This document shows, one piece after another, positions 5,576-22,397 of a DNA stretch of 64,000 bases. The stretch is from Pseudomonas sp. FP198 (GTDB taxonomy: Bacteria > Pseudomonadota > Gammaproteobacteria > Pseudomonadales > Pseudomonadaceae): positions 5,795,310 to 5,859,309 of the forward strand of contig NZ_CP117452.1 of the NCBI RefSeq assembly GCF_030687895.1, read 5' to 3'. Position 1 is the first letter of the stretch; every line of letters begins with the position of its first letter. Under the pieces are notes generated by a model. The model was not told the DNA's origin and did not search any database. It was given only the letters and a program-made list of their open reading frames with translations. The position numbers and the translations under genes are program-made.

Positions 5576-6556
5576 TTAAGGGTGTCGGCAGCTCGCCAGG
5601 CCCGCTTGAAGGATTTCCACGTCTTGTGGTTCGGCGAAAATCAGTTCGATTCGCGAATCCTGGCGCCACTCGCTCGCTTGCCACTCCAACAGCCCTGCGT
5701 CCAATGCATTGACGGAAACCCAACCGCCCTCGCTGTGGATAACCACCTTTGCGCGTTTCCAGTCTTTGCCGTGCAGCCATCGAGACAGCTGCACGACGTC
5801 AAATCGTTGATCTGGATGCCAGCGCCAACCGATGCTCCAGCTTTCGCCCTGCTGCCGATGCAGGCAGATCGGCAAGGTCGGGTCACTCCAGATGGCCGGC
5901 ATCTGCGCCAGGCTCTTGGGCACATTCAAGTTATCCACAGCCAGGTTATCTACAGCTCCGTCGCCGCGATTCGCCAAGCCGGGCAGCCGATCAATCGGCA
6001 ACGCAGCCTGATGGGTCCAATACAGCGCAGTCTCAGGCAATTGGGAAGTAATGACCACGCGATCGGCGTCGGTAAGGTCTTCGGACTTGTTTAGCACCAG
6101 CAAACCCGCGTCTGCCAGGACCTGTCGTTGCGCATCGGGCAACGGCTTGCCGTTCGCCATTGCTTGGGCATCCAGGACCAGCACACAAGGCTGGATCGTC
6201 AGCACGCCAAGCCAGGGCGCTTCGTTCAGCTGTCGCAAGAGTTGCGCCGGATGACCCAGCCCGGATGGTTCGATGAACAGACGGTGCGGCCGCGCCTTGC
6301 GCAATAAACGGCCTAGGCCGATCTGAAACGGCGCTCCGTTGACGCAACACAAACAGCCCCCGGCCACTTCGCCCAATGCGATACCATCGGCGGCCTGGGT
6401 CAGCAGCGCGGCATCCAGGCCGATCTGGCCGAACTCGTTGATCAGCACGGCCCACCGCTCATCAGCCGGACGCTGAGCCAGCAATTGCCTGATCAGGCTG
6501 GTCTTGCCTGCTCCCAAAGGGCCGGCAATCACATGGGTGGGTATGTTCTGCAACAT
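5576..6556 (-). CDS. COG0523/CobW-family GTPase (zinc-type metal chaperone)
   Basis: 326 residues. Walker A is at 12-20 (GPLGAGKTS), a hinge motif INEFGQIGLD follows, and the metal-binding CLCC sequence is at 68-71. The GTP-specificity motif appears as LNKSED, and a CobW C-terminal domain fills the last ~100 residues. COG0523 proteins deliver or handle zinc, cobalt or nickel at the expense of GTP. Its position beside zigA, folE2 and a ZnuCBA-like importer points to zinc. The start codon lies only 27 bases from the divergent gene at 6584. No Zur-type palindrome was seen between them. Confidence 0.88.
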   Translation of the reverse strand: MLQNIPTHVIAGPLGAGKTSLIRQLLAQRPADERWAVLINEFGQIGLDAALLTQAADGIALGEVAGGCLCCVNGAPFQIGLGRLLRKARPHRLFIEPSGLGHPAQLLRQLNEAPWLGVLTIQPCVLVLDAQAMANGKPLPDAQRQVLADAGLLVLNKSEDLTDADRVVITSQLPETALYWTHQAALPIDRLPGLANRGDGAVDNLAVDNLNVPKSLAQMPAIWSDPTLPICLHRQQGESWSIGWRWHPDQRFDVVQLSRWLHGKDWKRAKVVIHSEGGWVSVNALDAGLLEWQASEWRQDSRIELIFAEPQDVEILQAGLASCRHP

Positions 6557-6583
6557 GAGCGATAGCTTTCGACGGAGGTTTAA

Positions 6584-6937
6584 ATGCGCATGATCGGTTG
6601 GCTGTTACTGCTGCTGACCTCGAACCAGGCCTTGGCCCAGGCATGTGTAGTGCACAGCCAGGCGGAACGGCTCGATGTCAAAGTCTGCCAGCAGAACCGC
6701 AACATTCCGCAAAAACTGTTCGCCGACGGCTTCTGCCAACCCAGCCTGGCCGGACAGAAAGTCGATGTGCAGTATGTCGATCAGTGCCCTGGCGGGGCAT
6801 TTGGCATTTGCAGCAACGCCCAGGTCGCCAATATGCCTTATCGCCAGGATATTCACTATTACGGCGTGGCCACCGATGCGGCTTACCTGAAACCCTTTTG
6901 CGAAAGCCAAAGCCAGGGAAACTGGCTCAAGCCTTAG
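6584..6937 (+). CDS. Small secreted cysteine-containing protein, unknown function
   Basis: 117 residues with a good GGAGG site 5 bases before the ATG. A signal peptide is evident (hydrophobic GWLLLLLTSNQALAQA, cleavage after AQA near residue 20). The mature part has six cysteines (in ACVV, KVCQQ, GFCQ, DQCP, GICS, PFCES), consistent with three disulphide bonds and a periplasmic or extracellular location. I do not recognise the family. It lies inside the zinc-starvation locus, and its 3' end overlaps that of the convergent DUF1826 gene by 4 bases. A role in extracytoplasmic metal handling is only a contextual guess. Confidence 0.7.
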   Translation: MRMIGWLLLLLTSNQALAQACVVHSQAERLDVKVCQQNRNIPQKLFADGFCQPSLAGQKVDVQYVDQCPGGAFGICSNAQVANMPYRQDIHYYGVATDAAYLKPFCESQSQGNWLKP

Positions 6938-7578
6938 GCCAGCCAATCCAGCGAAAGGATCAAACGCCGCTCGCCGGGCGCCAGTTGCGGTGAGCGATGG
7001 ATCAGCCCATAGCCTTCATTGCCTTGCCACTTTTCACCTTTGAGCAGCGCCACATCACCGCTGCGCATCTGCTGAATCAGACTCGCGTCGGCAGGCTCTG
7101 CTTCAGGCTGGGCCAACCGTCGACGGTCCATGACGCCTTCCATGAGCCATTGGCTGCCGACGCCGGCATAGGTGGTGATCAGCCGCACCGGCACATGGTC
7201 GACGTGAAAACGCGGGCACATTGCGTCATCCAACGCGCGTAAGCGCAGACCGACGCGCCGGGCACCGAGGAGGCAGGCAAACGCACCGACCAGCCAGGCG
7301 ACATCCGCGACGAACCCTTCATATCCATGCAGATCGCCGAAGCCCGCGGCAAGGCCGTGCAACACCGGCTGCGTATCCTCGCCCGGCAATTCAAGCACCA
7401 TCGACTCGGCCAGGGGTTGGTCCATCGAGAGCACCATCGCCGCGAAATCGCCGATATGCGCCGGGAGGTGACGCTGCCACACAGCCAGGTTGGTGTCGTC
7501 CTCCAGGATCTGCGCGAAGGTAAGCGGCGTGTCTCCGTGGACCTGCCGCAGCTGCTTCAGACGAGGCGCCAGCATCAC
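6934..7578 (-). CDS. DUF1826 domain-containing protein
   Basis: 214 residues if the GTG at 7578 is used; the ATG at 7575 would remove one residue. Either start overlaps the TGA stop of the upstream GTPase gene, so the two genes are probably translationally coupled. The sequence fits DUF1826, including [22 protein letters not shown] and the C-terminal [19 protein letters not shown]. The H-x-D and HRSP histidines resemble the metal ligands of 2-oxoglutarate/Fe(II) oxygenase-like folds, but that is inference. The family commonly co-occurs with COG0523 GTPases in Zur-controlled loci, which agrees with the context here. Confidence 0.85.
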
Positions 7579-8783
7579 GCCGCAACCTCGTCATGCCACG
7601 GGCCGAACGGGTCTGGCAGCTGCCGCCAGCGCTCGATGCCCAGGCTCATCTCCGCGTCGGTGAGCAGGCAAGCGTCCAGTTCGGTGGCGAGCAGCGCGAA
7701 GTCTATATTCTGGCCAATGAATACCAGCTCCTGGCGGCAGTCCCCAGAGGCCTCCAGCCAGTTTTTCATGATCGCGGCAATGCTCTCCTCATCCTGCGGC
7801 CACTGGTTTTTCGGCACGAACCGCCACCAGCGCCCGGCGAAGCCGTGACGCATCAAGCCGCCGGCCTGGGACCAACTGCCGGCTTCCTCATGTTTGCTGG
7901 CGAGCCAGAAAAAACCTTTGGAACGCAGCAGTGTGCCGTTGGTCCATGGGCGGTCGATAAATTTGAAGAATCGTTGGGGATGAAACGGGCGGCGGGCGCG
8001 GTAAGCAGTCGATGCGATGCCGTATTCCAAGGTTTCGGGCACATGCTCGCCGCGCAACTCCCGCAGCCAACCGGGCGCCTGCGCCGCGCGTTCAAAATCG
8101 AAGCGGCCCGTATCGAGGATCTGCCCCAACGGCACCTGCCCCATGACCATGGGAATAACCTGCGCCTGGGCATTCAGGCGCGACAGGATTGCGCTCAACT
8201 CTTCTCGTTCGGAGCGGCTTATAAGATCAATCTTGCTGATCAGGATCACGTCGGCGAACTCGATCTGCTCGATCAGCAAGTCGGTTATCGAGCGCTCGTC
8301 TTCTTCTCCCAGGGTTTCGCCCCTGGTGGAAAGGTTTTCGGCGGCCTGGTAATCCTTGATGAAGTTCACGCCATCGACCACCGTCACCATCGTGTCGAGC
8401 CTCGCAACGTCCGCCAGGCTGCGCCCTTCTTCATCGCGAAAGGTGAAGGTTTCGGCGACCGGCATCGGCTCCGAAATGCCCGTGGATTCGATCAGCAGAT
8501 AATCGAAGCGGCCCTCCCTGGCAAGCTTGCCCACCTCCTCCAAGAGATCCTCGCGCAGCGTGCAGCAAATGCAGCCATTACTCATTTCGACCAATCTTTC
8601 CTCGGCGCGATTGAGGGTGACATCTCGCTGCACTTCGCTGCCATCGAGGTTGATCTCGCTCATATCGTTGACGATGACGGCGACGCGAAGGTTGTCGCGA
8701 TTACGCAGCACATGATTGAGCAAGGTGCTTTTACCAGCCCCGAGAAATCCGGACAGCACGGTAACGGGAAGACGGTTGGGCAT
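7575..8783 (-). CDS. zigA: Zur-induced GTPase, COG0523 zinc chaperone (ZigA-like)
   Basis: 402 residues, longer than the neighbouring COG0523 protein and matching the ZigA subgroup. Walker A is at 12-20 (GFLGAGKST), the hinge is [10 protein letters not shown], and the zinc-binding CICC is at 71-74. The [17 protein letters not shown] and ISKIDL motifs identify the G-domain; the C-terminal part carries the [17 protein letters not shown] stretch typical of this subgroup. Members are induced under zinc starvation and are thought to supply zinc to client enzymes. The Zur-type operator at 8862-8874 lies 79 bases upstream of the start. DUF1826 follows in the same transcript. Confidence 0.9.
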
Positions 8784-8861
8784 CAGGTTATCCTCATCGG
8801 GGCGGCCGCTTTGTGGCTCGTATCAGGTTTCGGTTCGGCTAAGGGGGTCATCTTTCTTGAT

Positions 8862-8874
8862 GTTATAGTATTAC
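8862..8874. promoter_or_regulatory. Zur-type operator between zigA and the secreted-protein gene
   Basis: GTTATAGTATTAC, one mismatch from the symmetric GTTATA-N-TATAAC core known for gammaproteobacterial Zur sites. It is placed between divergent genes (zigA starts at 8783, the secreted protein at 8918), so it could control both. The second copy at 9373-9385 is a perfect palindrome. Confidence 0.8.
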
Positions 8875-8917
8875 ACTTGAATACAGCCAACCCTTTTCCG
8901 CATCTGAGTTCTTATAA

Positions 8918-9310
8918 ATGCCCAACCTCTTCAAATACCTGTTCGCAGCGCCACTGCTGCTGATAGCGATGGGCGTTTCGGCGCAAGGCGCTTTGTTGGG
9001 CAACTGCACTCGCAGCGCCAATGTGCTGGCCTGCGTAGATGGACAGGGCAATGCCTACAGCGTCGCTACGGCGGGCAATACAATTTATCTGCGTGGATAT
9101 GAGGTGGCTGGCCACCGCTACTGGGCCCAGACAAACAGCCGATACGGCCAACTGACCTTCTTCACTGGACTGGCCTCCGATGGCGAAGCTTGGGTTGGAT
9201 ACAGTCGCCGTGTGGGCTGGACGACAATCAACCGTTTCTCCAGTTCTGGCGGTACTAGGGGCAGTTTTATGTGCGGGCGCATGAACGGCTGCCAGGATTC
9301 TTCACGCTGA
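8918..9310 (+). CDS. Small secreted protein in the zinc-starvation locus, unknown function
   Basis: 130 residues starting MPNLFKYLFAAPLLLIAMGV, a typical signal peptide with likely cleavage after VSAQG-A (near residue 24). The mature part is about 105 residues, rich in Gly, Tyr, Ser and Thr, with four cysteines (NCTRS, LACVD, FMCGR, GCQD) that could form two disulphides, and a run of aromatic beta-like segments. I do not recognise the family. The gene starts 44 bases after the Zur-type site, so zinc-starvation induction is likely. It may act on zinc or replace a zinc protein outside the cytoplasm, but nothing in the sequence proves it. Confidence 0.7.
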   Translation: MPNLFKYLFAAPLLLIAMGVSAQGALLGNCTRSANVLACVDGQGNAYSVATAGNTIYLRGYEVAGHRYWAQTNSRYGQLTFFTGLASDGEAWVGYSRRVGWTTINRFSSSGGTRGSFMCGRMNGCQDSSR

Positions 9311-9311
9311 C

Positions 9312-9325
9312 GTTTCACGTGGAAC
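9312..9325. other. parS-like ParB site (one asymmetric base)
   Basis: GTTTCACGTGGAAC; it matches the chromosomal parS core GTTCCACGTGGAAC at 13 of 14 positions and keeps the central CACGTG. It lies in the gap right after the secreted-protein stop codon. Two perfect copies are at 9818-9831 and 19163-19176. Confidence 0.75.
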
Positions 9326-9372
9326 TATCGAGATGAAACTCTGTTCATGAAAAAGGTCTCGTCGATTTTATT

Positions 9373-9385
9373 GTTATACTATAAC
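9373..9385. promoter_or_regulatory. Zur-type operator upstream of folE2
   Basis: GTTATACTATAAC, a perfect palindrome that extends to TGTTATACTATAACA (9372-9386). It is 31 bases before the folE2 start and overlaps an AT-rich promoter-like stretch. Repression by Zur when zinc is plentiful would shut off folE2 and the downstream importer genes. Confidence 0.87.
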
Positions 9386-9416
9386 ATCAAAAACGAACCT
9401 CTCATGGACCTCGAAA

Positions 9417-10311
9417 ATGAACGCGTTAACTCTGCCGGACATTGCGGCGCAGGCGTCTCGTCAAGCCATGCCGCTGGATTGGGTGGGCATGTGCGGCATC
9501 GCCGTGCCGGTGCTGGTGGACGGCCAGCGTTTGAGCGCCTCTGCCGATGCGGGCGTCAGTCTCGATGATGGCGAAGCGCGTGGCATCCATATGTCGCGTT
9601 TGTATGTGGCACTCGAAAAGCTTGAGGACACCGCGCTCTCTCCGGACTTGTTACGGCGGATCCTGCAAGAGTTTCTGGACAGTCACGAGGGTCTGTCCCG
9701 GAGTGCCTCACTGACCCTGCGCACCGATCTGATGTACAAGCGCCCCGCTTTGATCAGCCCATTAGCCGGCTGGAAGCGTTATCCCATCGTTATCAAAGCG
9801 CGCCTTAAACACTCAGTGTTCCACGTGGAACTTCAAGTCGAAATTCCTTACTCATCCACTTGCCCTTGTTCGGCAGCGCTGGCGCGGCAGTTGATCCAGC
9901 AAAAATTCCTCGACGATTTCTCGAATACAAACCTGGAGCACGCTGAAGTTCTCGCGTGGCTAGGTTCTCAGAAAGGTATCGTGGCCATCCCTCATAGCCA
10001 ACGCAGCGTCGCCATCCTGAACCTACGCTTGGACGCCAAGCTCGATGAGTTTCCGGTGTTACCGCTGATCAACGAGGCGGAGGCGGCACTCGGCACCGCT
10101 GTTCAAACCGCCGTCAAACGCGTCGATGAGCAAGCCTTCGCGCTCGCTAATGGGCAGAACCTGATGTTCTGCGAAGATGCCGCGCGGCGCTTGAATATAG
10201 CGCTGAGACCGCTGCCCTGGATTTCCTCTCTTGACGTACGAGTCGTTCATGCGGAAAGCCTGCACGCCCACGACCGTCGCCCAAAGCCATTGGCAACGGG
10301 AGGACTCATGA
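9417..10311 (+). CDS. folE2: GTP cyclohydrolase FolE2 (type IB); 3' end frameshifted
   Basis: The first 286 residues are a normal FolE2: GEARGIHMSR at 53-62, the Cys-containing STCPCSAALARQ near 147-158 (C149, C151), and the C-terminal ESLHAHD. It makes 7,8-dihydroneopterin triphosphate for folate and queuosine synthesis and replaces zinc-dependent FolE when zinc is scarce. After HAHD (codon ending 10274) the frame no longer reaches the expected stop. In the +1 frame the sequence reads VAQSHWQREDS and stops at the TGA at 10309-10311, which overlaps the next start as ATGA. As written, one extra base or two missing bases near 10275 make folE2 run on in frame into the ATPase gene, ending at 10595. 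Genuine mutation and sequencing error cannot be told apart here. Confidence 0.88.
9818..9831. other. parS site (perfect) inside folE2
   Basis: GTTCCACGTGGAAC, a perfect 14-base palindrome identical to the core of chromosomal parS sites, read in folE2 as codons for VFHVEL. ParB (54709-55581) is the expected binder. Confidence 0.88.
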
Positions 10312-10977
10312 TTCGTTGCCAGGGATTGAGTTGGGGTATCCCCGGGCACCCTCTCACTCCACCTCTGCACATGGAGCGCCCGGAGGGCAGCCTGACCGCA
10401 ATCATTGGCGCCAACGGATCAGGCAAAAGCAGCCTGCTGAAAAGTCATCGCCGGGTTACAGAAGCCATTGACCGGGAAGGTTTCGCTCAACGTTCAACGG
10501 CGCGGCGGCGTGTCGTTCCTGCCTCAACAGCAGCACCTGGATCGGCAATTTCCCATCAGCCTGCAGGAATTAGTGGCGGCAGGTTCCTGGGGTAATCGAC
10601 AGGAACCTGCCGTACGCAACCAACGACTCAAGGCGGTTCTAGACGACTGGGCCTTGAGCGGCCTGGAACACCGTTCGCTGATGGCGTTGTCGGGTGGCGA
10701 GTTGCAACGGGCGCTGCTCGCGCGACTGAGCCTGACCGAAGCGCCACTCCTGTTGCTGGACGAACCCCACGCAGCCCTTGATGAACAAGGCCAGGCACTG
10801 CTGTGGAAAAACATTCAGCGATGGCATCGCGAAGGGCGCACCTTGCTGGTGGTTTGTCACGATTTGGCTGCGGTGCATCAGCACATCCCCCATACCTTGC
10901 TGATCAATCCGTCCGGCTGCGTATTGGGTCGCAGCGCCGAATTGATCGCCCCGACGCCTTACACACAGGTCGCTTGA
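10308..10977 (+). pseudogene. Zinc ABC transporter ATPase (ZnuC-like), frameshifted
   Basis: Starts at ATG 10308 with MIRCQGLSWGIPGHPL and a Walker A GANGSGKSS, then loses the family pattern at a run of four A (10440-10443). Removing one A restores LKVIAGLQKPLTGKVSL and joins directly to the frame carrying GGVSFLPQQQHLDRQFP (Q-loop), the ABC signature LSGGELQRALLA, Walker B LLLLDEPHAAL and the H-loop VCHDLAAV, ending at the TGA at 10975-10977. As written, the product from 10308 stops at 10595, before the signature and Walker B, so the ATPase would be inactive. The ATPase powers import through the adjacent permease. Its TGA overlaps the permease ATG. A homopolymer sequencing error is possible. 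Confidence 0.85.
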
Positions 10978-11843
10978 TGCTCACCGCCACCCACTTCTGG
11001 CAGCCGTTCCAGGAATTTGTCTTCATGCGCAGGGCCTTGTTGGGCGGCCTAGTGCTGGCATGCAGCACAGCTCCGCTAGGCGTGTTCCTGATTCTGCGGC
11101 GCATGAGTCTGATCGGCGATGCGGTAGCTCACGGCATCTTGCCGGGCGCGGCCCTGGGTTTCTGGTTCGCCGGTCTGAGCCTGCCAGCCTTGACGGTGGG
11201 CGGCCTGGGCGCCGGCTTGAGCATGGCCGGGCTGGCGGCCTGGATCACCCGCCGCACCGGCCTGCGGGAAGACGCCAGCCTGGCGGCGATCTACCCCATC
11301 TCCCTCGCCGCCGGGGTGTTGATCCTCGGTATGTCCGGTAAACGCCTGGACTTGCTGCACCTGTTATTCGGCTCGGCGCTGGCGGTGGACGGCCCGACAC
11401 TCACCGGCATGCTTTGGGTTTCGGCGGCGAGTCTGGTGGCGATGGCGTTGATTTACCGCCCGCTGTTACTCGACACCCTGGACCCACTGTTTCTGCAAAC
11501 CGTCAGCCGTCTGGGTCCACTGTCCCACGGCGTATTCCTGACCTTGGTGGTGCTGAACCTGGTCATCGGCTTCCAGGCCATCGGCGCGTTGATGGTGGTC
11601 GGCCTGATGATGCTGCCGGCGGCCGCGTCGCGATTCTGGAGTCGTCGCCTGCCGATGTTGATGCTGGTCGCTGCATTGCTCGGTTGTCTCTCGGTGTGGC
11701 TGGGCCTGCTGTTGTCCTTCTATTTTTCGCTACCCAGCGGGCCGGCCATCGTCCTGGTGGCGGGCGCGTCATATCTGTTGTCCGTGGTATTCGGTCCGGT
11801 GCACGGCTTGCTGCGCCGCCCGCCCCTGCTCACATCCCAATGA
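10977..11843 (+). CDS. Zinc ABC transporter permease (ZnuB-like)
   Basis: 288 residues from the ATG at 10977, which overlaps the ATPase stop (TGATG); the longer frame from 10803 is an out-of-frame reading of the ATPase gene. It has about eight membrane segments and family motifs such as MRRALLGGLVLACSTAPLGVFLILRRMSLIGDAVAHG and the late QAIGALMVVGLMMLPAAASRFW. It is an ABC-3 family inner-membrane permease for Zn2+ or Mn2+. Zinc is favoured by the Zur-type operator and folE2 linkage. If the ATPase gene is truly broken, this permease would need an ATPase from another locus. Confidence 0.88.
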   Translation: MLTATHFWQPFQEFVFMRRALLGGLVLACSTAPLGVFLILRRMSLIGDAVAHGILPGAALGFWFAGLSLPALTVGGLGAGLSMAGLAAWITRRTGLREDASLAAIYPISLAAGVLILGMSGKRLDLLHLLFGSALAVDGPTLTGMLWVSAASLVAMALIYRPLLLDTLDPLFLQTVSRLGPLSHGVFLTLVVLNLVIGFQAIGALMVVGLMMLPAAASRFWSRRLPMLMLVAALLGCLSVWLGLLLSFYFSLPSGPAIVLVAGASYLLSVVFGPVHGLLRRPPLLTSQ

Positions 11844-11854
11844 GGTGTTACCTG

Positions 11855-12730
11855 ATGCGCGCCCTGCTCCTGATATTCAGCTTGATGCTGTCCATGTCCC
11901 TGTCTGCTGCTGAAAAACTCAGCGTGGTGACCAGCTTCAGCATCCTTGCCGACATGACCCGACAAGTCGGCGGCGAGCATGTCCAGATCACCAACATGGT
12001 GGGGCCGGACGCTGACGCACATACCTATGAACCCACGCCGGACGACGCCAAGGCATTGCTCGGGGCGAAACTGATCATCAAGAATGGGTTGGGCTTCGAG
12101 CCGTGGCTGGATCGCCTGGTGACCAGCACCGAAACCGGTGCCCCGGTCATCAGTGCCAGCCGTGGCGTGATTCCACGCTCGCTGGAAGAAGATGGCGAGA
12201 CCATCCCCGACCCGCACGCCTGGCATAACCTCGCCAACGCCGTGCTTTATGTCGGCAACATTACCAAGGCACTGGAGGCGGCCGACCCGGCGAACAAGGC
12301 CGACTACGAACGTAACAGCCAGGCGTACCTGAAGAAGATTTATGCACTACTCGCCGAAGCCAAGGCGAAGTTCGCTGCGTTGCCACCGGGCAATCGCAAG
12401 ATCGTCACGTCCCACGATGCGTTCGGTTACCTGGGCCAGGCTTATGGTATCGAGTTTTTGGCGCCGCAAGGGTTGTCTACCGAGCGTGAACCGTCAGCAG
12501 CGGAAGTCGCTGCGTTGATCACCCAGATTCGTCAGGCGAAAGTCAAAGCCGTGTTCATGGAAAACATCAAGGACGCGCGCCTGCTCAAGCAGATCGCCGA
12601 CGAAAGCGGCGCGCACATCGGTGGCACGCTGTACTCCGATGCCCTCGCCGCCAGCGGACCGGCCAGCACCTTTACCGGTCTCTTCGAATACAACCTCAAC
12701 ACACTCTACGAGGCACTGGGCCGGCCCTGA
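11855..12730 (+). CDS. Zinc ABC transporter substrate-binding protein (ZnuA-like, no His loop)
   Basis: 291 residues from the ATG at 11855, with GAGG 10-13 bases upstream; an ATG at 11840 overlapping the permease stop is less likely. A signal peptide (MRALLLIFSLMLSMSLSAAE) directs it to the periplasm. The cluster A-I fold is recognisable, with probable metal ligands H56 (DADAHTYEP), H121 (DPHAWHN), H187 (TSHDAFGY) and D262 (LYSDAL). The long His/Asp-rich loop of classical ZnuA is absent, as in many second-copy zinc or manganese binding proteins. It is the last gene of the folE2 transcript. Confidence 0.88.
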   Translation: MRALLLIFSLMLSMSLSAAEKLSVVTSFSILADMTRQVGGEHVQITNMVGPDADAHTYEPTPDDAKALLGAKLIIKNGLGFEPWLDRLVTSTETGAPVISASRGVIPRSLEEDGETIPDPHAWHNLANAVLYVGNITKALEAADPANKADYERNSQAYLKKIYALLAEAKAKFAALPPGNRKIVTSHDAFGYLGQAYGIEFLAPQGLSTEREPSAAEVAALITQIRQAKVKAVFMENIKDARLLKQIADESGAHIGGTLYSDALAASGPASTFTGLFEYNLNTLYEALGRP

Positions 12731-16225: not shown

Positions 16226-18136
16226 TCAGCGGCTATCCGACTGGATCTTTGCCAATGGCTCGTGAAACCGTAGCAGTCGTCCCGCATTGCCCAGCACCAG
16301 CAATGTGCTCAGGTTATGCAGCAGCGCGGCGATCATCGCCCCCGCTGCTCCGAGCCAGCCGAACGCAGCGAAAGCGACGATGGCCAGCGTCCAGCCCAGG
16401 CCAATGATCACGTTGACCTGCAACGTGCGTCGACACTGGCGACTCAACCGCACGCAAGTTCCGAGACGTCGCAGATCACTGCCGATCAACACGATATCCG
16501 CCGACGCCAGGGCGATATCGGCACCGCCCGCGCCCATCGCCACGCCCACCACACCGGCTTTCAGCGCCAGCGAATCGTTGATCCCGTCACCCACCACCAT
16601 CGGACGGAAACCCTGGTCGATTTCGACCATGACCCGGTCAAGCTTGTCCTCCGGCAGCGCCTGTGCCTGCAGCTCGCTGATACCGACATCGTGCGCCAGC
16701 GCGGCGGCTACACTCTGACGATCCCCCGTGAGCAATAACTGGCGACCCAGCCCCAGCGTCCGCAGTTCGGTCATGGCCACCCGCGCTTCCGGCTTGACGC
16801 TGTCGGCCAGCAGCAGCCAGGCGCGAAACTGCCCGTCCAGTGCCAGGCCGGCGATCGGGCCGTCATGACTGGGAACCGTCGGTGTCTCGATGCCCAACCG
16901 GGCAAACAATTCGGGTCGGCCAAGGGCGGCCTCCCCCTGCCCTGTCATGGCGACTACCCCGAGCCCCTGGCGTTCGTGAATATCAGTCAGCGGCAGATAA
17001 TTTTGCGCTGCCACCAGCCCCGCCAAGGCACGACTGACCGGATGACTGCTGGCCGATCCGAGGCTCGCTGCCAGTGGCAGCAATGCGGCAGGATCGTCCT
17101 CGGTACTTTCGATCGATTGCAGACGCAGGGTGCCGTAGGTCAGGGTCCCGGTCTTGTCGATGACCAACGAGGTGAGGTCCGCCAGCTCCTCGAGAAAAGC
17201 CGAGCTGCGGATCAGGATGCCGTGGCGCGCCGCCACCGCAATCCCGGCGATGGCCGTCGCCGGGGCTGACAGCACCAGGGCGCAGGGACACGCTGCCACC
17301 AGCACCGCCAACATTGCCTGGGCGTCATTGGTGACAAACCAGGTAACCGCCGCCAGCAACAACACCAGCACCAGATAACTTCCCGCGTAGCGTTCCAGCA
17401 AGCGGGTGATCGGCGGTTTCGAGCGCTCGGCGTTCTGCATCAGCGCAATGACTTTGCCCAGCGTCGATTCATCGCCGGTGCGGGTCACCTCCAGGCGCAA
17501 CAGACCGTCGAGGTTGATCGCGCCGCCAAAGACGTCAACGCCCGCCACCGCCTCCAATGGCACCGACTCACCCGTAATGGGCGCGGTGTCGAGGCTCGCT
17601 TGGCCGGACAGCACCCGACCATCGGCGGGCACCCGGTCGCCGGCGCGGACCTCCACCACATCGCCGGGTCGCAACGTAGCGTTGTCCACTTCGATGATCG
17701 AGCCATCAGCCTGCACTTTGCGGCCCTGGCTGCGGGTCAATTGGCGAAGGGCATCGATCGCTTCCTGGGAACCGATGACGCTGCGCTCTTCCAGCACATG
17801 GCCGAAAATCATGATGATCGGCAACAGCGCTGCCGTCAGCAGGTCGCCGGTAGCCCAAGCCCCCAGCATCGCCAGGGCGATCAACTGATCGGTAATCCCA
17901 TGCAGGCTTGGATGACGCAGGCTGTACCAGGCCGAGCGCATCACCGGCACCGCCACCAACAGCGAGGCGAACCCCAACAGCAGTTGGCTGACGGTACCCT
18001 GCTCTGGCAACCAGACGCGCCAGGCCAGGCCCAGGGCAAGCAAGCCGAGGGCGAGCATCGCCAGGGTCAGTTGCCGAGCGGCCGCGCGTTGCTCGGCGGT
18101 GGACAGCATCGGCATGTTGATACTCTGCGCGGTCAT
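16226..18136 (-). CDS. Heavy-metal P-type ATPase (P1B), linked to SPFH proteins
   Basis: 636 residues. There is no N-terminal CxxC metal-binding domain. Landmarks: TGES at 188-191 (actuator), the transmembrane metal motif CPC at 283-285, phosphorylated D327 in DKTGTLT, SSHP at 363-366 and GDGIND at 516-521. These are complete, so an active P1B pump is expected. CPC with HP is typical of Cu+, Cd2+, Zn2+ or Pb2+ exporters; the exact ion cannot be assigned. It is the last gene of a four-gene operon with 4-bp overlaps, after three SPFH-type membrane proteins. This is an unusual partnership for a metal pump. Confidence 0.88.
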   Translation of the reverse strand: MTAQSINMPMLSTAEQRAAARQLTLAMLALGLLALGLAWRVWLPEQGTVSQLLLGFASLLVAVPVMRSAWYSLRHPSLHGITDQLIALAMLGAWATGDLLTAALLPIIMIFGHVLEERSVIGSQEAIDALRQLTRSQGRKVQADGSIIEVDNATLRPGDVVEVRAGDRVPADGRVLSGQASLDTAPITGESVPLEAVAGVDVFGGAINLDGLLRLEVTRTGDESTLGKVIALMQNAERSKPPITRLLERYAGSYLVLVLLLAAVTWFVTNDAQAMLAVLVAACPCALVLSAPATAIAGIAVAARHGILIRSSAFLEELADLTSLVIDKTGTLTYGTLRLQSIESTEDDPAALLPLAASLGSASSHPVSRALAGLVAAQNYLPLTDIHERQGLGVVAMTGQGEAALGRPELFARLGIETPTVPSHDGPIAGLALDGQFRAWLLLADSVKPEARVAMTELRTLGLGRQLLLTGDRQSVAAALAHDVGISELQAQALPEDKLDRVMVEIDQGFRPMVVGDGINDSLALKAGVVGVAMGAGGADIALASADIVLIGSDLRRLGTCVRLSRQCRRTLQVNVIIGLGWTLAIVAFAAFGWLGAAGAMIAALLHNLSTLLVLGNAGRLLRFHEPLAKIQSDSR

Positions 18137-19185
18137 TGCCCGCCTCCCTGGATGATCAGACGAGAATCGTCTTTCGGGTCGACCGTGGTGACGGAACCAG
18201 CCCGACCAAGAATCCCGGGCATGCGTTCGCGGTACAGACGCAGCAGCATCTGCGGATCGTTGTCCTGGGTTTTCGCCAGGCCCGACACCGAGGCTGTGTC
18301 GGTCGATGCCTTGGCAAGCCGTTCGCTGGCCTGGGCATGGGCGACTTGTAACGCACGGTCGGCTTCCTCGCGGGCAGCCTGGGTCTGCTTCTCCGCCTCG
18401 GTTCGGGCGTTGGCGACCGCTTTGTCGGCCTGCTGGCTAGCCGTCAGCACCGCATTGAATGCGCTCACCGCCGGCCCCGGCAGGCTCGATTGCACGTCGA
18501 CCCGCACCACTTCGATCCCCAAGCCCTGCCCCGTCGCGGTCAGGTCAGCCAGGCGCCGATTGATGCCCTGCACCAGGTCGCCACGCAAGCGTTCACGGCG
18601 CTCCGCGGCCTGGGTATCGCTGCCCATCAGTTCGGGGCGGGCCACCAGAATGGTGTCCAGGTCTCGCGCCGCGGCAAGCGCCACGGCACTTCTCGTCGCC
18701 AACCGGTCCAACGCCGGCAATACATGTTCGCCTTGGAGGACAAACGCATAAGGCTCGATGACCTTGTAAAAGAGCCGCACATCCAGTTGCACCACGCCCG
18801 CATCGCCGGTCAACAGATAACCGGAGCCCGCGAGTTCGTCGCTGACCGGCGTGGCGAAACTGGCGACGCGATCAGCCTGCAAGGCCGCATCCGAACGCAG
18901 CAGACTTTCCACCCGGCGCTCCAGCACCCGGTCTGCCGCCGGAAGCAAAATCACTTGTTCCACGGGACTCGGCCACGCCAATAACAAACCGGCATTGTGG
19001 ATTCTATCCAGCGCACCAAAGTGTAAAACCACCGCCCGGCTCTGCGGATCAATTTGCCGCACATTGGAAAATATCCAGGCCAACGCCGCCAGGACAGTCA
19101 CAGCATAGAGCGCGAGGAACGCCAGACGCCCGGCCTGAATCCACGGGCTGGATAACTCATTTGTTCCACGTGGAACCACGCTCAT
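18133..19185 (-). CDS. SPFH/band-7 membrane protein (HflK/HflC-like), third of operon
   Basis: 350 residues. One N-terminal transmembrane segment (about 21-41) is followed by a band-7 domain (start DPQSRAVVLHFGALDRIHNAGLLLAWPSP in part) and a long Ala/Glu/Gln-rich predicted coiled coil (about 235-300), ending in a short tail with DDSRLIIQ typical of HflK. HflK/HflC form periplasmic-side cages that modulate the FtsH protease; relatives here are divergent copies. A perfect parS site forms codons 4-8 (VPRGT). Both ends overlap neighbouring genes by 4 bases, so translational coupling is expected. Confidence 0.82.
   Translation of the reverse strand: MSVVPRGTNELSSPWIQAGRLAFLALYAVTVLAALAWIFSNVRQIDPQSRAVVLHFGALDRIHNAGLLLAWPSPVEQVILLPAADRVLERRVESLLRSDAALQADRVASFATPVSDELAGSGYLLTGDAGVVQLDVRLFYKVIEPYAFVLQGEHVLPALDRLATRSAVALAAARDLDTILVARPELMGSDTQAAERRERLRGDLVQGINRRLADLTATGQGLGIEVVRVDVQSSLPGPAVSAFNAVLTASQQADKAVANARTEAEKQTQAAREEADRALQVAHAQASERLAKASTDTASVSGLAKTQDNDPQMLLRLYRERMPGILGRAGSVTTVDPKDDSRLIIQGGGQ
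19163..19176. other. parS site (perfect) at the start of an SPFH gene
   Basis: GTTCCACGTGGAAC, perfect 14-base palindrome, located 9-23 bases inside the coding region of the gene starting at 19185. It matches the site in folE2 exactly. Confidence 0.88.
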
Positions 19186-20219
19186 GGTTGTGTTCCACCT
19201 TTAGGCTCCAGAGCGGGTGGACCGTCCACCAGAACGCGAAACGGTGCCGCGTCAGTGCGCAAGATCAGTTTGGTGCCGGGGCCGACAATGGTGTTCAAGG
19301 TGTCCAGCGAGCGCAGCAAATTATAAAGCTGCGGCGAACCGGCATAGGCCTTGCCGTAGATTTCAGCTGCTTCGACGCGGGACTGCGCTTCGATCCCCGC
19401 TGCTTTAACCGTGGCATCAGCCTGCATGATTCGCGCATCGCGTTCGGCCGCCGAGCGAATCTGCGCCGCTTCGCGCTTGCCGATGGCTGTGCGCTCCGTG
19501 GCGATGGTTTCACGTTCGGCACGCATGCGGTCCACGGTCGCGGTGAGCGTCACCGAGGGCAGCGTCAGGCGTTCGATACCCACCTGCAAAACCCGCACGC
19601 CATAAGTGGCGAGCAATTGTTGCTCGATCTGCTGACGCAACTGGGCTTCGAAATCGGCAATATGCACCTGACTGGCGTCGGTATTGACCAGGTTTGCCAA
19701 ATCAAAACTGGCCGCCGTTGTTTCCAGTGCCGAGCCGACGAAGGTGCGAATCTGCCGCGCAGCTTCGTCCGGCTGGTTCTGCACGGCGCGCATGAAGCGC
19801 TGCACATGGTCCGGGTCACCCTGGACCTGCCACGCCACATAGGCCTGGACGATGATCCGCAGACCGTCGCGTGTGCCGACGTCCTGCAATCCGCTGGAGG
19901 TGGTGCGCAGCCTGAGGTCTACCGGGATCGCCGCCTCGAAAGGTGCCGGCCAGCGCCAGCCCAGGCCGGGTTGCAAAAGTACCCGCGCCGGGTTGCCGAA
20001 GCGGGTAATGACAGTGGCCTCCCCCGAACGCACCTGTACCAGGCTGGCCGCCGCAACGGCAAACGCCACCAGCAGCGCGGCCCAGCCCATCCGCCGCCAC
20101 GGAAACGGGCCGGCTTGCTGCGGATCGCCATGATGATGGTGATGCCCGTGATGGTGTCCGGCATGACCGTGATCGTGACCGGCATGGTCGTGATGACCAT
20201 GGGAAGAGGACTGGCTCAA
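19182..20219 (-). CDS. SPFH/band-7 membrane protein (HflC-like) with His-rich N-terminus
   Basis: 345 residues. The first 31 contain 15 histidines (H7, 9, 10, 12, 15, 17, 19, 22-24, 26-30) mixed with Gly, Asp and Ala, the composition of a metal-binding tail. One transmembrane segment (about 47-65) precedes a band-7 domain starting VRSGEATVITRFGNPARV and a coiled-coil segment with RMRAERETIATERTA, an HflC signature. The C-terminus resembles HflC (LILRTDAAPFRVL). With the tail in the cytoplasm, it could hand metal to the P-type ATPase two genes downstream; this is inference. It overlaps both neighbouring genes by 4 bases. Confidence 0.83.
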   Translation of the reverse strand: MSQSSSHGHHDHAGHDHGHAGHHHGHHHHHGDPQQAGPFPWRRMGWAALLVAFAVAAASLVQVRSGEATVITRFGNPARVLLQPGLGWRWPAPFEAAIPVDLRLRTTSSGLQDVGTRDGLRIIVQAYVAWQVQGDPDHVQRFMRAVQNQPDEAARQIRTFVGSALETTAASFDLANLVNTDASQVHIADFEAQLRQQIEQQLLATYGVRVLQVGIERLTLPSVTLTATVDRMRAERETIATERTAIGKREAAQIRSAAERDARIMQADATVKAAGIEAQSRVEAAEIYGKAYAGSPQLYNLLRSLDTLNTIVGPGTKLILRTDAAPFRVLVDGPPALEPKGGTQP

Positions 20220-22177
20220 TGGGCAGCTCCTGGCTGGACAGGTTGGTTTGGCGATGCGGGATCCGCCGGCAGCGTGAAGGTGCGCAGGTCAATGGTCGGT
20301 GCGTTGCCGTTGCCGCCCAGGCGATGGTCAAGGATCAGCAAGCTGGCGCTGCCGAGGCCCTGGCTCAGTTGACCGAGGTATTGCTCCAGCACGAAGGCAT
20401 GGCCAGCCGTCGCGTAGGCCTGGCGTTCGGCGCGAAAGCGCAGGTCGGCGGCTTGGGCAGTGGCGTTGATTTCACGCGCCGTGGCTTGGGCCTGATCGTT
20501 GGCAGTGCTGGCTTGCAGTTGCGCCTGGTTGACCTGCTGCGCAGCGGCGCCGCGCTCACGGGCGATCAACGCCTGGGCACCGATCTGCGCCGCTTGTACA
20601 CCGTGGTAGGCATTGGCTGCGCCAGCCGGGGGATGGATCGCCTCGACCACTGTCGCAAGAACCTCCACGCCGCTGTCGAGCGATTGCAGATCGGCCTGTA
20701 CGGTGCGACCGATTTCCTCCGCCAGGCTGACACGGTCCGCACCCAGCAAGCCATCCAGCGTGCGCGAGGCAAATTCATGCACCAGGACGCGGCTGGCCGT
20801 GCTGCGAATCAGCGTCGGCACATCAGCACTGTGGTACGTCGCCGCCAGCGCCGCTGCATCCGTCAGGCCGATGCGATAGACGAAGCGTACGTCCATGTTG
20901 ACGATCTGGAAGCTCTGCTGATCCGCGCGACGGCTGGCGATGACCTGGGATTTGTCATTCACATGGCTGGCATCCCACAACCGATTGGCGATAGCCGGAG
21001 CCGGTCCCTCTGCCGGTTCCGCGACCGAGGCCGTCTTGCCGTCGCCGACGCTGGTCGCCAACTCGTGGACGACACCGTTCTCGACGCTCAATACCCTGCC
21101 CCACGGCCACGGCAACCCTGCATGGAGACCAGGGCCAAAGACCTGCACCGGCTTGCCGAAACGTTCATAGATGCCGCGTCCTTGCAGCGGCACCTCATGC
21201 ACGCCGGTCAGCAGCCACCCCACCATCGCCACCAATGCCAGCACCGGTAAAAAGGCCCGGCGCATGTAGCTGAACGCCCAGATCTGGCGCAGGTCGATGC
21301 CAAAACGATTGTGCAATTCATGCTGCAAGGCCAACAGTGGTCGCGGCGGCCAGCGCAGCAGATCGGCGATCACACTGCGACCCAGCAGTGTCGGTTCCAA
21401 GGTGTTCCGGCGCGGGCTGAACAACGCCAGCAGCGCGCGTAGCATCAACTCCGCCGCCACCAGGCCCGGCAACAAACCGATCAGCACCGCCAGGCGTACC
21501 GGCCAGACGGACGCATCCCCGGCGAAGAGCAGACACACGGCAGCCAGTACCAGCACGATGATCGGCACCCGTGTCAGCTGCGCCAGCGCCGCCGCTTCGG
21601 GCCATTCGATCGGCGACTGTTGAGCCAGTTGGCGCTCGAACGCCAGCAACCCGAACGCCAGCACCAACGAAAGCACCGCGCCGACGCTGGCCGCCACGCC
21701 GAGCGAAGCGGCAGGCAACGCCAAGTCCCAGGTTTGCTCCAGAACCAGCAACGACAGCAGCGCCCAGCCGGCAAGCCACAGGAGCGGCCCGCCGATTTGC
21801 TGCAGCAGACCGATCCAGCGCGCGCTGATCCGCTCAAGCAGGCGCTCGTACCAACCCGAGTTATCAACAGGCTCATCTTCGCCAGGCAGGATATCCACAA
21901 CCGGAAGCAAGGCCTTGCTACGCCATTGCGTGATCCACCAGGCCGATTGCAATCCGGCCACCAGCACCGATAACGCCGCGCCTTGGCTCACCAGCAACGC
22001 CGGCCATATCGATTGTGGCGAAAAAAGCCCGATGAAAAACGCCGACACCAGCCCCAGCCCCGCGAGGCCGCCCAGTACTAGCGCGATCCGCTTCAAGCGC
22101 AGCCCATGGAATGCAGCGCGCTGGAAGCGCGGCCAGTCGGCCACGTGTGCCCCGTCTATTTCCAGATCGACTTGCAT
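20216..22177 (-). CDS. SPFH/band-7 protein (HflK-like) fused to a polytopic membrane domain
   Basis: 653 residues, about twice the length of HflK. The N-terminal ~310 residues contain seven or so hydrophobic segments (for example IALVLGGLAGLGLVSAFFIGL and VPIIVLVLAAVCLLFAG). After a last membrane segment near 315-335 the HflK-like part starts (VHEVPLQGRGIYERFGKPVQVFGPGLHAGLPWP in part) with a band-7 domain, an Ala/Gln-rich coiled coil and the tail LILDHRLGG. It begins the four-gene operon; the start has TGGAGTGAC directly upstream. The fusion is unusual and suggests a membrane scaffold. Function unknown. Confidence 0.82.
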   Translation of the reverse strand: MQVDLEIDGAHVADWPRFQRAAFHGLRLKRIALVLGGLAGLGLVSAFFIGLFSPQSIWPALLVSQGAALSVLVAGLQSAWWITQWRSKALLPVVDILPGEDEPVDNSGWYERLLERISARWIGLLQQIGGPLLWLAGWALLSLLVLEQTWDLALPAASLGVAASVGAVLSLVLAFGLLAFERQLAQQSPIEWPEAAALAQLTRVPIIVLVLAAVCLLFAGDASVWPVRLAVLIGLLPGLVAAELMLRALLALFSPRRNTLEPTLLGRSVIADLLRWPPRPLLALQHELHNRFGIDLRQIWAFSYMRRAFLPVLALVAMVGWLLTGVHEVPLQGRGIYERFGKPVQVFGPGLHAGLPWPWGRVLSVENGVVHELATSVGDGKTASVAEPAEGPAPAIANRLWDASHVNDKSQVIASRRADQQSFQIVNMDVRFVYRIGLTDAAALAATYHSADVPTLIRSTASRVLVHEFASRTLDGLLGADRVSLAEEIGRTVQADLQSLDSGVEVLATVVEAIHPPAGAANAYHGVQAAQIGAQALIARERGAAAQQVNQAQLQASTANDQAQATAREINATAQAADLRFRAERQAYATAGHAFVLEQYLGQLSQGLGSASLLILDHRLGGNGNAPTIDLRTFTLPADPASPNQPVQPGAAH

Positions 22178-22397
22178 GTCACTCCAGTGCTTGTGGCATT
22201 CGAGAACCGGACACGCGAAGCCTACGGCACCGCATCGCTCCGTTACATGTCGTTACCTTATAACCAACGCTGTGAAATTTCCGTTTTGAATTCTTCATGG
22301 CAAACCCTGCGGCGGACGCTTGACTTAAGCCTTGACCGTTATCCGCGAGAACACTCATATTATGGTTATAATTTTTCCAGGCATGAGGGAAACCGTA

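Follow-up and report, generated by a model that had tools for sequence, protein, structure and literature searches.

Three SPFH genes and an HmtA-type P-type ATPase gene in one operon of Pseudomonas sp. FP198

The introduction of PMC12624060 states that every known SPFH complex is built from a single protein or from two paralogues related to each other, and PMC12005517 calls the precise functions of most SPFH proteins in bacteria unclear. Here, we describe a four-gene operon of Pseudomonas sp. FP198 in which three SPFH genes are followed by the gene for a metal-transporting P-type ATPase (hereafter, the pump), and we find that pump and SPFH genes were present together or absent together in the genomes sampled. 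The operon lies on the minus strand at positions 16226–22177 of the window, that is, the whole stretch of 64,000 nucleotides analyzed (contig NZ_CP117452.1, positions 5,795,310 to 5,859,309). In type, the locus matches the hmtA locus of Pseudomonas aeruginosa, PA2434–PA2439. Two further systems are close enough to be compared with it, namely the HflK/HflC cage of FtsH and the PacL–CtpC system of Mycobacterium tuberculosis, in which PacL1 scaffolds and stabilizes the pump CtpC and carries a metal-binding tail (PMC9374683, PMC13043812).

In P. aeruginosa, PA2437–PA2439 have been described as genes of the HflC/HflK family adjoining hmtA; in a znuA mutant they were raised 9.0–14.4 fold and hmtA 5.6 fold, and the predicted Zur site at the locus was weak (PMC4542158). 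The PA2439 promoter was shifted by Zur in a gel shift (PMC8531726), and a proteomics preprint reported that zinc depletion raised HmtA, PA2437, PA2438 and PA2439, the increases being significant only in part (PMC11761036). The genes raised by N-acetylcysteine also include PA2437–PA2439 (PMC9431628). HmtA itself is presented in reviews as an unusual importer of zinc and copper (PMC10393844, PMC8456098). In 2026, the SPFH trio was named PaFlo5–7 and was reported from a small, scattered set of species of different classes, for which horizontal transfer was proposed (PMC13086221). When the literature was searched for a functional link between the SPFH proteins and the pump, the closest accounts were PMC4542158 and PMC11761036, whose relevant passages note the neighbourhood.

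The layout of the hmtA locus recurs in the window: three SPFH genes, an HflK-like one first, and then a P-type ATPase gene, all on one strand and with a Zur-like sequence match upstream of the first gene. The P. aeruginosa locus resembles it in its annotated HflK-, HflC- and HflC-family genes beside a P-type ATPase gene, and adds the published Zur binding and zinc-depletion response described above. The HmtA-type assignment of the pump rests on this layout, on the published annotation and on a P. aeruginosa relative of gene 1 that is 57% identical to it over 694 alignment columns, the sequence of PA2435 not having entered the comparison. A sequence-only reading of the window, made before this analysis, knew of no named system of this composition; that claim falls, since the locus type is that of HmtA (PA2439–PA2435) and the trio is PaFlo5–7. 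The features of the operon are as follows.

20216–22177, minus strand: gene 1, membrane-SPFH protein of 653 amino acids, HflK-side SPFH by sequence, with a six-helix N-terminal domain
21407–22177, minus strand: N-terminal domain of gene 1 with six transmembrane (TM) helices (about residues 1–257), predicted fold like that of CDF (YiiP/ZnT) proteins, without the CDF metal site
20546–21184, minus strand: SPFH (Band_7) domain of gene 1 (residues 332–544), top fold matches HflK, presumed periplasmic
19182–20219, minus strand: gene 2, HflC-side SPFH protein by sequence, 345 amino acids, TTG start, His-rich N-terminal tail
20127–20219, minus strand: His-rich tail of gene 2, 15 His in 31 residues, ahead of the single TM helix, its membrane side assigned by inference
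18133–19185, minus strand: gene 3, HflK-side SPFH protein by sequence, 350 amino acids
16226–18136, minus strand: gene 4, P1B-type metal ATPase of 636 amino acids, HmtA-type by locus, no N-terminal metal-binding domain found by Pfam
17282–17290, minus strand: CPC motif of the pump (residues 283–285)
16304–16318, minus strand: HNLST motif in the last TM helix of the pump (residues 607–611)
22252–22264, minus strand: Zur-like box GTTATAAGGTAAC in the operon promoter, a sequence match

All four open reading frames (ORFs) are present, and adjacent genes overlap by 4 bases at each of the three junctions (20216–20219, 19182–19185 and 18133–18136), just as the sequence-only reading had stated. At gathering scores, Rfam found no RNA in the window.

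Two differences separate the window from the P. aeruginosa locus. An extra gene number, PA2436, precedes the pump there, whereas the window's pump follows the SPFH genes directly; and the window operon stands near a zinc-starvation island. Six of the loci compared below (L155–L160) carry an insert of 660–695 bases between the third SPFH gene and the pump. In the five of these that were read, the insert holds an ORF of roughly 160–180 codons with a signal-peptide-like start; the ORF from L158 had no Pfam match, and the insert ORF may correspond to PA2436. The parts and the regulation of the system are already known in P. aeruginosa. What is new here is the strict unit of pump and SPFH genes, the conservation of a Zur-like box in most Pseudomonas promoters examined together with the nearness of the zinc-starvation island, the lineage-dependent His tails, the make-up of two HflK-side subunits and one HflC-side subunit, and the predicted CDF-like domain.

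Co-occurrence of the pump with the SPFH genes

We compared 107 loci, consisting of the 80 best of 352 gene-1 loci (all Pseudomonas), 20 family relatives, 6 plasmid loci and the window. All four genes were found in the same order and on the same strand in 106 of the 107, and in 109 of 110 when three loci from other families were included. The exception (L044) lies on a contig that ends 170 bases after gene 1, and genes 2–4 are lacking. Three imperfect loci are counted among the 106: in L010 the pump is cut by the contig end, in L025 gene 3 has an internal stop, and in L068 the pump is shortened. An overlap of exactly 4 bases is kept in 94, 96 and 97 of the 106 loci at the three junctions, as measured by a script that favoured a 4- or 1-base overlapping start codon wherever one was available.

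The 110 loci were found through gene 1, and alone they are no evidence that the pump needs the SPFH genes. Among 148 Pseudomonadaceae genomes, the same 21 matched genes 1, 2, 3 and 4, and the other 127 matched none (cut-offs: gene 1, E 1e-30; gene 2, 1e-50; gene 3, 1e-40; gene 4, 1e-90). Among 397 Pseudomonadota genomes, in which profiles of genes 1 and 4 only were used (cut-offs 1e-40 and 1e-160, respectively; three candidates scored per genome), both profiles matched the same 12 genomes, belonging to four genera in three families. The weakest gene-1 match in this search had an E value of 1.1e-217, and all gene-4 matches had an E value of 0. This two-way test shows that, at the cut-offs used, the pump is tied to the SPFH genes and the four genes form one unit. 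The phyletic co-occurrence that the sequence-only reading had proposed to examine is thus all-or-none in the genomes sampled, and together with the conserved order it rules out a chance neighbourhood. In this sense genetics identifies a client of SPFH proteins: in the 148 Pseudomonadaceae genomes a metal pump and the three SPFH paralogues go together with no exception.

The unit is found on chromosomes and plasmids in bacteria of several classes. The whole cassette was present at all six plasmid loci fetched, from Rhizobium, Klebsiella aerogenes, Paraburkholderia and Burkholderia; these are six of ten cassette hits, H1 and H5–H7 (Rhizobium) having been left out. An eleventh plasmid hit, from Tistrella, proved to be an annotated hflK–hflC pair and was rejected as a cassette. 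In four gene trees of 24 loci, patristic distances correlated at r 0.83–0.98, and 10–14 of 21 splits were shared (the comparison kept gene 2 of L182, a truncated translation). Because the distances correlate and the splits are shared, these sequences suggest that the four genes have mostly travelled together.

As a separate observation, the K. aerogenes plasmid pYD-K10_1, which is typed as conjugative, carries a Tn3-family transposase about 2.4 kb downstream of its cassette (L139).

Composition of the trio, the pump and the His-rich tails

All three SPFH proteins matched Band_7 of Pfam above the cut-off (gene 1, E 2e-20; gene 2, 2.7e-31; gene 3, 3.8e-15). Their best NCBIfam matches were hflK or hflC, with 92.7 bits for gene 3 (hflK), 92.1 for gene 2 (hflC) and 54.8 for gene 1 (hflK), and none of the three reached the equivalog cut-offs of hflK (159.4) or hflC (134.4). 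We built a tree of them together with 19 further SPFH proteins, drawn from this genome and others and comprising, among the rest, the annotated HflK and HflC of Tistrella. Each gene formed its own clade (support 99–100); gene 2 fell on the HflC side and genes 1 and 3 on the HflK side (Shimodaira–Hasegawa-like approximate likelihood ratio test, SH-aLRT, 98), in what was a quick tree with three long outgroup branches. Because of this placement, with which the NCBIfam matches agree in direction, the trio is, as judged from sequence, made up of two HflK-side subunits and one HflC-side subunit.

The genome also holds a separate HflK/HflC pair. The trio resembles the HflK/HflC cage of FtsH in its SPFH domains, in having HflK- and HflC-side subunits, and in the fold of gene 1, whose top matches are HflK structures. 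However, that cage has two paralogues, whereas three are found here, all below the equivalog cut-offs, and the trio differs further in its one six-helix domain, its one His tail and its genetic tie to a metal pump.

Gene 1 has seven predicted TM segments. The sequence-only reading had described one SPFH protein as fused to a membrane domain of about 310 residues; the fusion is real, and its membrane part is better divided, by prediction, into a six-helix domain (about residues 20–257), followed by a linker and then by a seventh helix that connects to the SPFH part. By prediction, the six-helix domain may fold like the CDF (YiiP/ZnT) zinc transporters, and the resemblance is one of predicted fold alone. 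Cation_efflux of Pfam gave no match to this domain up to E 1, and hhalign of the domain against 28 CDF proteins gave a probability of 2.1%, as against 100% when one half of the CDF set was aligned with the other. The CDF metal site consists of Asp/His in TM2 and TM5. In 42 sequences of the gene 1 domain, no column of TM2 or TM5 had D/E or H in at least half, whereas the 28 aligned CDF proteins do show conserved D/H columns. Membership of the domain in the CDF family was rejected both by sequence (Pfam and hhalign) and by the metal site. CDF proteins carry a cytoplasmic domain after their TM part; in its place gene 1 has TM7 and the SPFH part.

When gene 1 was used in a class-wide BLAST search, 80 of 183 other genomes matched, and the matches listed covered the SPFH half only (query residues 306 and above). 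Among the matches listed, this BLAST sample showed no relative of the N-terminal domain, whereas the phylum profile search did find copies outside Pseudomonadaceae. Two minor observations concern other copies of gene 1. The P. aeruginosa relative (P0246) has an internal duplication of about 50 residues ahead of its C-terminal part. In seven relatives a stop codon appeared inside gene 1 (one TAA each), and these were rejected as real internal stops; in L121, the one of the seven that was read, the gene ends a few residues early and the match runs past its end.

The pump clears the P1B-type ATPase cut-off of TIGR01525 (512.4 against 346.25 bits). Its DKTGT motif was present in 105 of the 106 loci, the remaining one being L010, which is cut by the contig end, and CPC was present in 105 of 105 loci holding that region, out of 106 compared. 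The HNx[S/G]T motif of the last TM helix was found in 104 of 106 loci, and the two misses are one contig-cut gene and one shortened gene. Identity with a ZntA-type zinc exporter was rejected, because the pump scored below the ZntA equivalog cut-off (283 against 1240 bits) and Pfam found no N-terminal metal-binding domain. In an alignment with PDB structures, the His of HNLST aligns with the Asp of ADTGAT in ZntA and with the His of a HEGST stretch in 7qbz. In its last TM helix, the pump has His in place of the Asp of ZntA, a further difference from the ZntA type. From the combination of CPC and HNLST we claim no substrate.

The 15 His that the sequence-only reading had counted in the first 31 residues of one SPFH protein are those of gene 2. 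Its tail has at least 8 His in 105 of 106 loci, with a median of 16, and the exception is Klebsiella, with 1 His by this count. The N-terminus of the pump has 4–11 His in 14 of 106 loci: nine of these are all the Pseudomonadaceae loci that lie outside the window's genus, three are from Rhizobium, and one each is from Klebsiella and Paraburkholderia. In the remaining 92, among them the window, the pump has 0–2 His. The earlier statement that the pump lacks an N-terminal metal domain accordingly applies to the window's genus and fails for these 14 pumps, which have a His-rich tail. Most lineages outside the window's genus carry both tails, the window's genus has the SPFH tail only, and Klebsiella the pump tail only. 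Because the position of the tail (SPFH protein, pump or both) varies by lineage, we infer that the two tails are partly interchangeable sites for one metal-handling function. By analogy with HflC, the tail of gene 2 should face the cytoplasm. In L181, the SPFH tail carries Cys as well.

The Zur-like box, a possible mechanism and its alternatives

We searched the 5.86 Mb genome with the pattern GTTATANNRTAAC, read off the window promoter and a Zur palindrome, and found it in two places only, the operon promoter and window position 9373. The stricter pattern ATGTTATANTATAACAT, allowing up to 3 mismatches, was also found in two places, window positions 8860 and 9371. Because the operon's box is absent from the latter matches, it appears by this measure to be a weak Zur site, as published for PAO1 (PMC4542158). 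Among the promoters of the 107 loci, the box was exact in 89, had one mismatch in 8 and had two to five mismatches in 10; of 2140 shuffles none was exact and 0.56% were off by one, although many of the loci are close relatives. It was also exact in two gammaproteobacterial loci of another family. The Zur-like box is conserved in most Pseudomonas promoters examined. The genome encodes two FUR-family proteins, and the one beside ORFs resembling znuC and znuA (named by eye) is likely Zur. The metal role proposed in the sequence-only reading fits the Zur-like box, the zinc-starvation island and the published zinc-depletion data. The membrane cage, the delivery of metal to the pump and the shielding of the pump from proteolysis, which that reading also put forward, are conceivable functions of the SPFH set.

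In two rhizobial-type loci (L138 and L180), the place ahead of gene 1 that the Zur-like box occupies in Pseudomonas holds an inverted repeat seen by eye, GATACGT-N4-ACGTATC, perhaps the site of another regulator. The Paraburkholderia locus has an annotated zinc ABC transporter and a GTP-binding protein upstream.

We lean slightly towards the view that the HmtA-type pump works with a private SPFH trio that serves as its scaffold and metal handler and is turned on by the loss of Zur repression in zinc shortage. The trio would assemble around the pump and scaffold, stabilize or enclose it, and zinc shortage would switch on the operon by relieving Zur repression. The SPFH parts may form a periplasmic dome of the HflK/HflC kind, and the CDF-like six-helix domain, without the CDF metal site, would be a wall in the membrane or a dock for the pump and not a transporter. 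The His tails, on the cytoplasmic face, would accept, buffer or hand over metal at the cytoplasmic side of the pump, and in this way could stand in for an N-terminal metal domain. Net transport would be uptake of zinc and/or copper, as published for HmtA.

The nearest parallel for such a scaffold is PacL–CtpC, in which a membrane protein that bears a metal-binding motif, and apparently shares an operon with the pump, is required to maintain pump levels and forms clusters with the pump (PMC9374683, PMC13043812). However, PacL is a small membrane protein, whereas the partners here are large SPFH proteins, and PacL platforms work in export when metal is in excess, whereas for the present type of locus the regulation published is by zinc depletion. 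A scaffold of the PacL type proper (Glu/Ala or Gln/Ala repeats and a C-terminal metal motif) was rejected, the partners being SPFH proteins of 345–653 amino acids. More tentatively, and on the doubtful side, the three paralogues could form a cage with a CDF-like wall, a His-tailed HflC-type subunit and a second HflK-type subunit that encloses one P-type ATPase in a closed inner-membrane metal compartment. If true, such a cage would be to uptake what the mycobacterial effluxosome is to export, and would have a metal pump and not a protease as its client.

Several observations weigh against a scaffolded, Zur-controlled uptake system. The hmtA mRNA was low and was not repressed on zinc addition (PMC8531726), and PMC10393844 excepts hmtA from the zinc-uptake promoters bound by Zur. 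In its passages on HmtA overexpression, the same review names no SPFH partner for the effects, so the SPFH set may be dispensable for transport. Deletion of PaFlo5–7 in PA14 had slight effects, about 20% less biofilm and attenuation in Galleria; the section list of that paper does not place zinc limitation among its assays, and a term search of its text gave no occurrence of 'HmtA' or 'ATPase' and a single one of 'zinc', which concerns FtsH (PMC13086221). The copies of Rhizobium, Klebsiella, Paraburkholderia and Burkholderia have no recognizable Zur-like box in their upstream regions. Several solved P1B pumps bear the names of efflux or exporting pumps. The charge rule leaves the side of the gene 2 tail unfixed, with two Lys/Arg on each side of the helix, and a cytoplasmic His tail could equally well pass metal to an exporter or take it up from an importer.

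The last of these points bears on an alternative that we consider unlikely while giving it some weight, namely that the complex is an outward platform whose pump, fed by cytoplasmic His tails, would rid zinc-starved cells of copper, cobalt, cadmium or excess zinc let in by their less selective importers. The best solved relatives of the pump are ZntA and a 'cadmium translocating' ATPase, the pump passes a cadmium-family NCBIfam cut-off, His-rich tails on an SPFH subunit or the pump would sit where exporters receive metal, and PMC10393844 notes that the import direction of HmtA still needs confirmation. However, that review also reports that overexpression of HmtA raises intracellular zinc and copper, and the Zur-like box and the induction by zinc depletion suit uptake better.

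It is less probable still that the trio modulates FtsH in zinc starvation, as HflK/HflC do, with the pump merely one FtsH client. The NCBIfam matches and the tree placement on the HflK and HflC sides agree with this idea, and PMC11761036 raises a link of PA2438/PA2439 to the zinc protease HflB. Nevertheless, none of the three proteins reaches an HflK or HflC equivalog cut-off, the genome keeps its separate HflK/HflC pair, and the strict tie is to the pump, no search for FtsH near the loci having been made. A general membrane-organizing SPFH set that shares only a promoter with a functionally separate pump, both helping in zinc starvation, would agree with a slight PaFlo5–7 biofilm phenotype in tests unrelated to metals (PMC13086221) and with HmtA effects obtained by overexpressing the pump (PMC10393844), but is very improbable given that neither pump nor SPFH set occurred without the other in the 148 and 397 genomes at the cut-offs used, that the gene overlaps are kept in most loci, and that it depends on the lineage whether the SPFH protein or the pump bears a His-rich tail.

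The scaffolded-pump reading touches the question of metal import by P1B ATPases, both whether it occurs and by what means. Studies of HmtA without its co-inherited SPFH partners may have dealt with only part of the machine, and a PaFlo5–7 mutant already exists (PMC13086221).

The neighbouring zinc-starvation island

The zinc-starvation island occupies positions 5576–12730 of the same window as the operon and contains two strong Zur-like boxes, at 8860–8876 and 9371–9387. On one side of the boxes are ZigA (680.3 bits, cut-off 600), a second GTPase of the CobW type and DUF1826; on the other side are FolE2 and an AztABC/ZnuA-like zinc importer that scores below the Azt equivalog cut-offs. At 9417–10977, the folE2 frame continues into the start of the AztA-like ATPase, and the remainder of the ATPase lies in another frame from 10468. 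The AztA-like ATPase gene looks frameshifted, or the sequence contains an error at this point.

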